Origin: Bacteroidales bacterium
Lineage (GTDB): Bacteria; Bacteroidota; Bacteroidia; Bacteroidales; UBA932
Direction: 5' to 3'
Assembly (NCBI GenBank): GCA_017465225.1
Contig: JAFTWQ010000017.1
Location: 60,947 to 124,946, forward strand
Length of the DNA: 64,000 bases
Shown here: positions 49,632 through 52,777 of the stretch, in pieces
Numbering within the stretch: the stretch's first letter is position 1
Layout of the letters: each line of letters starts with the position of its first letter
Position numbers and translations under genes: made by a program
The notes under the pieces: model-generated
The model's database searches: none
Seen by the model: only the letters and a program-made list of their open reading frames with translations
Told to the model about the DNA's origin: nothing

Positions 49632-50909
49632 CTATGGCCTTAGCTTGGCTCCGATGAAGTAGATTGTTCCGGTGTTGTTCTCCTGTATCAGATATGCAAA
49701 AGGCCGGTCTGCATGGAACAGTATCGGTTCTTTACCGGAATGCGGTGGTGCCCAGTCCAGCCCTCCTCCTATGGTTACAGCCGCTGCTTCAGTTCCGGAC
49801 TCGTCTACGATGATTCTGCTTTTCTGCTTCAGTAATCCGAGATATATACCTGCTGCGCCTGTGCACATTTCTGTAAATTCTGCTTCAACAGGTGAGAATG
49901 CTTTTTTCATTCCCAGGGCTTCCATCATCTCTATAAGGTCAAATGAACACTCGACATCCAGTTTAGGCATCTTGAAACTGACTTCATGGTACTTTCCGGT
50001 AGAAGTCAGGACGTCATTCCACACATCACTGTCGAGGGAAGCAATGAAATCATTGAAAGCCACTCCTTCGTCAGGCAGGATGACATACATGCTGAATGAA
50101 CCGTTTCCATATGGGAGCGATACGCATGACCATGTGTCGGTATAGTAATATTGCATATTGTCGTGTCTGGACATCATGTCCAGGCGTGACTGCGAACCGT
50201 TGATGCCCGTGAACACTTCTTTCCTTGTGTGCTCCTCCTTGAATTTATCTTTCCATTCTCCCTTGAAATACAGGCTGTTGAGGGCATAAAGTACGGTCGA
50301 CGGGACGACTTCCTCCTTTTCAATTATGCGAGGGATCAGACCCCCGGAGTGCGTGTTGCACCAATCGTTCACGCGTTTTACCACACCGTCGACATCAGAG
50401 AAGTCGATGCTTTCAATATAAGCATCATAATATGTCACTATCTTATCCTCGAACTGCTCCTTCAATCCGTAATTCCTGTTGATCATCACTGCATTCGCCA
50501 TCTCCACTACAACGTCATTATCTACGAAACCGCTTTCTCTCATGATCTTCCGGCAGAATGCATTGATGTCCTCGACTGTCCCGTCTGAAAATCCAAGGAC
50601 GTCAGTGATTTCCTGACTGGTCTCTCCTGTAGCTCCGTTATTCAGGGCTCCAAGCACAAAGCTGGCGCTGAGAGGGGATACAATGATGTCTCTTCCGTTA
50701 TGCTGATCGCTTGCCAGCGCTTCCTTGAACAGGTTGAATGTGAATGAATTGGTCCCTTTCACAAGCTGGCTTTCGCTTCTGGTGAGGACTAGGGGCTTTT
50801 CTTCGAATTCCTCCTTTTTATCTGGGTCTTTGCCTATCTTTTCGCATGAGGCCCATACGAAAGGAACTGCAAGTGCCAGAATGCACAATATCTTTCCAGT
50901 ATGTTTCAT
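49632..50909 (-). CDS. Serpin-family protease inhibitor lipoprotein
   Basis: 425 residues. The signal ends FVWASC, probably a lipoprotein. The full serpin fold is visible: NSFTFNLFKEAL, IIVSPLSASFVLGALNNGATGET (strand/helix B), LYALNSLYFKGEWKDKF, and C-terminal FHADRPFAYLI. The reactive-centre hinge DESGTEAAAVTIGG is intact (small residues P12-P9), so it should be inhibitory. Counting from the hinge Gly372 as P15 gives P1 about Trp386, P1' Ala387 (one residue uncertainty), which suggests chymotrypsin-like targets. Gut-bacterial serpins inhibit host neutrophil or pancreatic proteases. It is transcribed alone. Confidence 0.92.
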   Translation of the reverse strand: MKHTGKILCILALAVPFVWASCEKIGKDPDKKEEFEEKPLVLTRSESQLVKGTNSFTFNLFKEALASDQHNGRDIIVSPLSASFVLGALNNGATGETSQEITDVLGFSDGTVEDINAFCRKIMRESGFVDNDVVVEMANAVMINRNYGLKEQFEDKIVTYYDAYIESIDFSDVDGVVKRVNDWCNTHSGGLIPRIIEKEEVVPSTVLYALNSLYFKGEWKDKFKEEHTRKEVFTGINGSQSRLDMMSRHDNMQYYYTDTWSCVSLPYGNGSFSMYVILPDEGVAFNDFIASLDSDVWNDVLTSTGKYHEVSFKMPKLDVECSFDLIEMMEALGMKKAFSPVEAEFTEMCTGAAGIYLGLLKQKSRIIVDESGTEAAAVTIGGGLDWAPPHSGKEPILFHADRPFAYLIQENNTGTIYFIGAKLRP

Positions 50910-50969
50910 ATGACAATGTCTTTACTATAAAGATACGGAAAATATAAAAGACTGCGTGGAAATATTCAT

Positions 50970-52571
50970 TTACTGCCATGTAAATCTGATTCCGACAGGT
51001 ATGGTGAAGCTGAATGGCTTGTCGGTACGGATGGTCCTTATGTCGCTTCCGGTATCAAAATAATAGTAGAGGTCAGGCTCGACATATATGCTGAGCTTTC
51101 TTGTGATTTCAAACTGCATACCTATTCCCGCTCCAGCAGACCATTGGTACGGTGCATCAATCTGTCTGCCGTCAATCTGTGCTGCCAAAGGCATCTCGAA
51201 CAATGCTCCGGCAGATACATATGCATTGATGAACCTGCAGTCCCAGAAAGTATATGAGGCCTTTAACGGGATACCCAGATAATGGATCTTCTGCTTGCCG
51301 ACGTACTGGTCATGCATTATGTCCGACCTCAGGTATGTGTATCTGAGACCTGTGCCGATGTTCCATCTTTCGCTGACTTCCCAGTTCAATGACGCATCAA
51401 AGCTTACAGGCATGTAATGTCTGTATCTGCTGTCGTCGCTGCTCTGTCCGGCAGCGGTTCTTCTTTTCATTGGTGAATCCTTTTCCTCGTCATCATTCTC
51501 CCCGTCTTCGATATTTCCAGGGTCATCATTCCCTGTCTCCGGCCCTGATGGTGGATCAACAGGCATACCCTCATCTGGTGGGGATGATGGGAAATGACCG
51601 TTTCCTACCTGCGTCTCTCCATCATTTCCGGCAGGACCATGACTTCCTACAGAGAATGATAACGATACTTTTCTGCCCCTTCTTCTTTCGGATTCGTTAT
51701 CCTCGAATACATCAGTATCATATGGATCGATGCAGTCCGTATTCTCCTGGATATCGTCAGACTCTTCATTTTCAATGACTTCGACTATGTCCTGCATTTC
51801 CTGTACAGGCTGCTCATCCTCTTTTACCACCGGCTTCGCAGTCTTTTCCACCGGATTCTCAGTCTTTTCCACCGGCTCTGCAGTCTTTTCTGCCGGCTCC
51901 GCCATGGCGATCAATGGCTTTTCAATCTCCACGGTGCTGTCAGCTGCAACCGGCTCTTCGATAACAGCAACCGGTTCTTCTTCATATTCAACCGCAATGT
52001 CCTCCCTGCCTGTAAAATGGAATATGGCGAAAAGAAGCACAAGGAATGTGATGAGTATGCCCCAGTTCCGATTAATTATCTTGCGCAGAAGCTGCTTAGC
52101 CCTTGCAAGGTTGGATGATGAGGAATGAGGGGCGATACCGAGCATTTCCCCGATCTCCTGATGCGACAGACCTTCCAGGACTGATAGCCTGAAAACCTTT
52201 CCATACTGGGTCGGAAGTTCGTCGATCGCCTTTATGAGGTCCTCGAAAGGAATGGCTTCGATACCTGTGGCTGCAGCTTCTTCTTCGTGGATCTCATTGA
52301 GTTCGCTCACATCCGTACCGGAAAACTTCTTTTCCTTTTCAATATGCTTCAGAGAAAGGTTCCTGGCTATTGCGCACATCCATTGCTCGATCTTTTCGGG
52401 CTCGCGCAGGGTCCCGATACGTGAAAATATGATGATGAAGGCGTCGTGAAGTATGTCTTTCGCCACATCGATGTCATGGACATAGCCAAGGCATATCCCG
52501 AGAAGCTTCTGGGAGTACCTTTCATATATATTGGAATATACCTGTCGTTCTATGTCGCTGATCGGTGCCAA
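50970..52571 (-). CDS. ECF sigma factor fused to inner-membrane helix, disordered linker and outer-membrane beta-barrel
   Basis: 533 residues in one continuous frame. Residues 15-80 are sigma-70 region 2 (YSQKLLGICLGYVHDIDVAK, then IARNLSLKHIEKEK). Residues 112-165 are region 4 with its helix-turn-helix (YGKVFRLSVLEGLSHQEIGE, then MLGIAP). Residues 170-187 form a membrane helix (WGILITFLVLLFAIFHF). About 190-380 is a Glu/Pro-rich disordered segment with PVEKT-type repeats, and 384-533 is a predicted small barrel (NIGTGLRYTYLRS, GIPLKASYTFW, AGAGIGMQFEI). Start is TTG 52571; an in-frame stop lies 6 nt further upstream. No anti-sigma domain is present. It resembles dual-membrane-spanning anti-sigma proteins, but with the sigma factor itself as cytosolic part. 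Confidence 0.85.
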   Translation of the reverse strand: MAPISDIERQVYSNIYERYSQKLLGICLGYVHDIDVAKDILHDAFIIIFSRIGTLREPEKIEQWMCAIARNLSLKHIEKEKKFSGTDVSELNEIHEEEAAATGIEAIPFEDLIKAIDELPTQYGKVFRLSVLEGLSHQEIGEMLGIAPHSSSSNLARAKQLLRKIINRNWGILITFLVLLFAIFHFTGREDIAVEYEEEPVAVIEEPVAADSTVEIEKPLIAMAEPAEKTAEPVEKTENPVEKTAKPVVKEDEQPVQEMQDIVEVIENEESDDIQENTDCIDPYDTDVFEDNESERRRGRKVSLSFSVGSHGPAGNDGETQVGNGHFPSSPPDEGMPVDPPSGPETGNDDPGNIEDGENDDEEKDSPMKRRTAAGQSSDDSRYRHYMPVSFDASLNWEVSERWNIGTGLRYTYLRSDIMHDQYVGKQKIHYLGIPLKASYTFWDCRFINAYVSAGALFEMPLAAQIDGRQIDAPYQWSAGAGIGMQFEITRKLSIYVEPDLYYYFDTGSDIRTIRTDKPFSFTIPVGIRFTWQ

Positions 52572-52661
52572 ATGCCTTTACTTTTATCCGTAAATCTAAT
52601 AAAAGTACCGGAAAACGAAAAAGACTGCGTGAGAAAACTGAAAACTTGACGTATATATACG

Positions 52662-52764
52662 AAAAAAGGGAAAGCTTGATACATCGCACCGCTACGACCT
52701 CCTACCCTTGCTGCGGTCAAGCCCTGGGGGAATTCGGAGGGAGCTGGTCGTGTATGACTTTCCC
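52662..52764 (-). ncRNA. ffs: 4.5S RNA (small bacterial signal recognition particle RNA)
   Basis: An RNA of about 100 nt. The closing helix is GGGAAAG (5', 52764-52758) with CTTTCCC (3', 52674-52668), followed by a T6 terminator tract. The internal helix-8 region reads CCCCCAGGG-CUUGACC-GCAGCAAGGG, which matches the CCAGGG...GCAGCAAGGGUA core of SRP RNA in length and position. The apical segment CUUGACC replaces the common CCGGAAG. A TACATTTG -7 box at 52770-52777 places the start at 52764. The RNA scaffolds Ffh in co-translational targeting. Confidence 0.85.
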
Positions 52765-52769
52765 GACTG

Positions 52770-52777
52770 CAAATGTA
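52770..52777 (-). promoter_or_regulatory. Bacteroidetes -7 element for the SRP RNA
   Basis: TACATTTG on the minus strand, with its end 6 nt before the predicted RNA 5' end. Confidence 0.65.

Follow-up and report, generated by a model that had tools for sequence, protein, structure and literature searches.

A single gene in a Bacteroidales genome was found to join an ECF sigma factor, a predicted inner-membrane helix, an acidic and proline-rich linker, and a C-terminal domain of the outer-membrane barrel type in one polypeptide. The fusion recurs in related genomes, its frame is under purifying selection, it does not contain the anti-sigma domain characteristic of split barrel proteins, and a promoter-like motif often precedes both the fused gene and the gene that follows it. 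With moderate confidence, the protein is proposed to be a self-amplifying envelope sensor of the Dma3 kind—that is, a membrane-held sigma factor that would be freed by proteolysis and would then read its own promoter and the next one. Throughout, "the window" denotes the whole 64,000-nt stretch of contig JAFTWQ010000017.1 (GCA_017465225.1).

Architecture of the Fused Gene

The sequence-only reading had placed sigma factor, membrane helix, linker, and barrel-type domain in one frame, and this order was borne out on the minus strand (Table 1), where 533 codons run uninterrupted from a TTG start; an in-frame stop lies three codons 5′ of the TTG, the open frame comprising 535 codons, and the plus strand of the same interval is interrupted by stops. 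Both sigma regions named in that reading are present, with Sigma70_r2 at residues 15–82 (E 1e-7) and Sigma70_r4_2 at residues 110–162 (E 8e-13), each above the Pfam gathering score. The protein possesses regions 2 and 4 and no region 3, as is the rule for ECF sigma factors; its sigma domain also matches TIGR02937 above the cut-off, and solved ECF sigma factors, including 1or7 and 6jbq, were matched by the profile of the fused family. The hydrophobic stretch that follows, at about residues 169–187, has a net charge of +5 before it (residues 152–168) and of −7 after it (residues 188–207), in agreement with the membrane helix claimed at this place.

The C-terminal domain, which had been taken for an outer-membrane barrel, is of barrel type by homology: OMP_b-brl gave an E value of 3.6e-5 against residues 389–530, under the Pfam cut-off for this sequence, and was found at E ≤ 1e-3 in 31 of the 32 members of the alignment of fused relatives. 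About seven strand-like stretches were read by eye from the sequence of residues 384–533, and an eighth strand may lie at about residues 300–309. An automated search for this first barrel strand returned scattered answers, so its placement is taken from alignment columns only. With a possible strand there, the linker may comprise residues 188–299 and residues 313–383 may form a surface loop; the PVEKT-type repeats described earlier are present in the linker, and the extent then assigned to it, up to residue 383, is perhaps too long.

The fused gene is flanked by a cytidine-deaminase-like ORF and a serpin (ORFs named by eye). A Bacteroidales small SRP RNA (RF04183, 112.7 bits) was found just 5′ of the fused gene on the same strand, at window positions 52664–52771.

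Table 1. Features of the fused gene and its surroundings (window positions)
Feature	Position	Strand	Basis
Fused sigma/membrane helix/linker/barrel CDS	50970..52571	-	ORF; intact in L120, Ka/Ks 0.21
ECF sigma domain, residues 1–166	52074..52571	-	Pfam Sigma70_r2 and Sigma70_r4_2 above gathering score
Predicted inner-membrane helix, residues 169–187	52011..52067	-	Hydropathy and flanking charge
Acidic/Pro linker with PVEKT-type repeats, residues 188–299	51675..52010	-	Sequence and composition; end at 299 putative
Possible first barrel strand, residues 300–309	51645..51674	-	Alternating hydrophobic columns, alignment A2; putative
Barrel-type domain, residues 384–533	50973..51422	-	OMP_b-brl, sub-threshold here; 31/32 relatives
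Promoter-like two-box site before fused gene	52600..52629	-	Motif search; position converted from contig coordinates
Promoter-like two-box site before serpin gene	50928..50956	-	Two-box pattern search
Serpin lipoprotein gene, predicted target	49632..50909	-	PF00079, E 5e-89

Conservation and Recurrence

The nearest named relative, L120 (MAG RGIG7217, from water buffalo cecum), shares the frame and the TTG start. Comparison with this locus gave a Ka/Ks of 0.21 overall. Purifying selection is seen in every part, the sigma domain having a Ka/Ks of 0.072, the 26 codons round the helix 0.327, the linker 0.307, and the barrel part 0.207.

Recurrence of the fusion, which the sequence-only reading had left to a homology search, was observed in named loci collected by querying with six aligned fused proteins. 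An uninterrupted fusion was present in 79 of the best 80 of 260 loci, including those of Prevotella denticola, P. multiformis, and Segatella buccae; with fused queries and this selection, the proportion is no estimate of how frequent the fusion is among such sigma factors. Intact fusions were likewise found in at least 23 of 400 genomes of the window's genus and, among the loci fetched, in at least 7 of 393 genomes across the order, the window's own genome being counted in each and the numbers being lower bounds because three or four candidates were scored per genome. The genome searches also yielded open frames of 480–724 aa, which were rejected as fusions: they extend across stop codons, and the majority are split pairs sharing one frame. 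No relative turned up among viral contigs in a single-sequence search.

The 114 fused loci, representing 105 distinct proteins, share further traits: the positive-inside charge pattern was seen in 101 of 104, and the C-terminal residue is W or F in 107 of the 114. An assembly artefact or a decayed gene would nevertheless find some precedent in two loci, namely L099, a fused-type gene of one related genome with a break of frame in the linker through decay or assembly error, and L188, the interrupted exception among the 80 named loci. Against the many intact fusions in named loci and genus genomes, and the Ka/Ks relative to L120, such an origin of the present gene is considered extremely improbable.

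Missing Anti-Sigma Domain and Origin of the Fusion

The window's genome also contains two ordinary pairs in which a sigma gene is followed by a barrel gene, and the barrel proteins of these pairs possess an N-terminal domain. An anti-sigma profile was derived from the stretch of split barrel proteins that precedes the membrane helix, the domain being defined by its position and its function being putative. This profile recovered its 60 source proteins; when half of them were used to build it, 28 of the 30 held-out ones were recovered, compared with none of the 114 fused loci at E 1e-3; the omission of the anti-sigma domain, as originally suggested, is thereby upheld. In addition, no FecR-type anti-sigma Pfam family appeared among the matches of the fused protein up to E 1, and neither a separate cognate sigma ORF nor an anti-sigma gene was seen among the ORFs neighbouring the fused gene.

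A sigma tree was built from 43 fused and 66 split sequences, the truncated fused-type loci L083, L097, and L188 being excluded. In it, the fused sequences formed one group with an SH-aLRT of 94, just under the tool's star, and the broken gene of L099 fell inside it. The fused sequences, L099 included, also came together in a tree of the barrels (37 fused, 57 split), with a support of 0 for the separating branch, so only the sigma tree speaks for one origin. A single ancient fusion event would be the simplest reading, though not a proven one. The sigma tree also bears on the question of whether an unlinked anti-sigma factor, or some other partner acting in trans, silences the sigma factor while the tether only localises it. 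The two split barrel proteins with an N-terminal domain could act across pairs in this manner; however, no anti-sigma gene adjoins the fused gene, flanked as it is by the serpin and the cytidine-deaminase-like ORF, and the fused sigma factors constitute a group of their own, making silencing in trans rather improbable.

In 108 of the 114 fused loci, the membrane helix sets in 2–7 residues beyond the point where the sigma profile ends; for the remaining 6 this distance is −2 to 1. The sigma factor could be active on its anchor, in the way that ToxR, CadC, and other membrane-bound activators work while anchored, with the barrel or linker altering its activity without any cutting; the absence of an anti-sigma domain to hold the sigma factor off is consistent with this possibility. 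However, with only a few residues between the recognition helix and the start of the membrane helix, there is little room for polymerase, and a sigma factor must either leave with the polymerase or release it. Activity in the anchored state is thus regarded as unlikely, and proteolytic release of the membrane-held sigma factor is the reading developed below.

Promoter-Like Motif and Predicted Targets

Usable starts were obtained for 77 of the 79 fused named loci, 76 of which had a 400-nt flank. Of 101 distinct fused genes, 90 carry the motif [AG][TC]GCAGT[CA][TA]TT within the 200 nt 5′ of their sigma start. The corresponding counts were 12 of 72 for other genes—a set of "split" rows that includes the truncated fused-type loci L083, L097, and L188, all with the motif—0.07 of 101 in shuffled controls, which preserved base composition only, and, for the reverse strand, 1 of 101. 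Among the 91 sites in total, the distance from GCAGT to a second box was 20 or 21 nt in all 40 of the GGAC type and 21 nt in all 21 of the CTC type, and the remaining 30, the window's own site included, have other second boxes. The first box occurs again within 160 nt 3′ of the fused gene in 62 of the 76 loci. Several split sigma genes, for example those of L039, L102, L104, and L105, are preceded by a kindred motif with GCAGTATTTTT and then a different second box; both classes may therefore be self-regulated, their promoters having diverged.

The gene following the fused gene in 73 loci was radical-SAM-like in 29, a small lipoprotein gene in 32, a serpin gene in 3, and another gene in 9; L120, L121, and L122 have the serpin as the next gene, as in the window. 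A radical SAM/SPASM-type gene was observed 3′ of the fused gene in L149, L152, L125, L123, and L137 (identity checked for L149); another enzyme-like ORF comes next in all five, and four of them also have small lipoprotein-like ORFs thereafter. This neighbourhood is possibly a dedicated target operon.

Across the window's genome, the ten-base first box alone was hardly enriched (10 places, versus 7 in the control). With the second box added, three places remained and the control gave none: the promoter of the fused gene, that of the serpin gene, and a site (L216, contig C47) 43 nt 5′ of ORF 990–1484 on the minus strand, which encodes a lipoprotein-like product of about 165 residues weakly resembling TIGR04134 (radical-SAM-associated lipoprotein), under that model's cut-off. 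When six genomes of the genus were searched with the window's two-box pattern, G319 showed the fused gene's own site and the serpin site, G584 its own site, and G454 the downstream site only, with one match in the reversed control as well; G477 and G492, both carriers of the fusion, had none. In seven cultured-strain genomes, 12 of the 13 strict sites of the CTC-type pattern were at the fused locus, the control giving none; one of the 13 sites is in H. marshii, and two of the seven genomes show the downstream site only. Eight further genomes of the genus each had a single site, the fused gene's own promoter. Two over-strict patterns had no matches. Overall, the two-box patterns gave 0–3 sites in each of 21 genomes, and the fused locus accounted for nearly all of them. 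Because these patterns derive from known sites, further targets may be missed, and the results point to a small local set of targets without proving it.

Proposed Mechanism

From the arrangement described above, we infer the following course of events. The sigma domain would lie inside the cell, anchored in the inner membrane by the helix that starts right after its DNA-recognition helix, while the linker would cross the periplasm and the C-terminal domain would reside in the outer membrane. Without an anti-sigma domain, the anchor itself would block productive transcription by the sigma factor. A disturbance at the outer membrane would then lead to a cut in the linker, after which an RseP-type protease would cut the membrane helix and free the sigma domain, and this domain would read promoters with a GCAGTCTTT-type first box before its own gene and the next gene. 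By reading these two promoters, the freed sigma factor would amplify its own synthesis and activate a limited group of envelope genes, in this genome the serpin lipoprotein gene, and a serpin as the output would fit protection against extracellular proteases. One RseP-type protease is encoded in the window's genome and likewise in all 14 control genomes, and its presence is not specific as support. A surface signal of a gut bacterium may in this way be passed to a few genes.

A bolder and more tentative version would treat the protein as a covalent wire from surface to promoter: one polypeptide that might span outer membrane, periplasm, inner membrane, and cytoplasm, having shed the anti-sigma domain, that might be largely dedicated to its own gene and one neighbouring operon, that might be silenced only by the recognition helix running into the membrane helix, and that might use the outer part of the barrel as its sensor. 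The observation made in the sequence-only reading is confirmed, and its interpretation—a tethered sigma factor whose release would switch transcription across both membranes—is partly supported.

Comparison With Known Systems

The question touched on here is the route by which signals in Bacteroidota cross two membranes and reach RNA polymerase, and the fused family, which occurs in cultured Prevotella-like species, approaches the simplest possible route. Given such a route, such hosts, and predicted promoters and targets, it can be tested directly how the sigma factor is silenced in the absence of an anti-sigma domain, how it is released, and how the barrel is linked to the promoter.

In the cited passages, the Dma1/Das1 and Dma2/Das2 systems of B. 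thetaiotaomicron (PMC13088901) and a sigma/anti-sigma barrel pair of Phocaeicola vulgatus (PMC9308784) have a membrane helix, a long disordered linker, and a C-terminal barrel. The like parts of the fused protein are predicted, helix and linker from hydropathy and composition, and the barrel from homology. These systems differ in that, as described there, the sigma factor is separate and the barrel protein begins with an anti-sigma domain, the fused protein having neither.

Sigma factors joined to a membrane-bound C-terminal part are also described for IutY (ECF243) and the ECF52 protein SCO4117 (PMC8999054); by that description, both are fusions to an anti-sigma part and lack an outer-membrane barrel. 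According to the same passages, Prc and RseP set IutY free (PMC8999054), and proteolytic release in this manner is proposed for the fused protein.

The closest counterpart is Dma3 of B. thetaiotaomicron, which has no adjacent sigma gene and bears a sigma factor domain at its own N-terminus, little else being known of it according to the cited part of a 2026 account (PMC13088901). The dma3 locus is given as bt_2778-2779, and BT2778 bears the annotation of a sigma-70 family sigma factor (PMC10434189). Dma3 is likened to the fused protein by description alone, as a Dma-like protein with an N-terminal sigma domain, and on this account the sigma fusion is not new in kind (PMC13088901). No other account of a sigma/barrel fusion was recognised in the literature searched, and Dma work of 2024 may cover parts of what is added here. 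As far as could be read, the additions to the Dma3 account are the membrane helix directly after the sigma domain, the promoter-like motif before the fused gene and the next gene, and the few sites per genome; the missing domain, the conserved promoter, and the small number of sites make the fused family a good, directly testable case.
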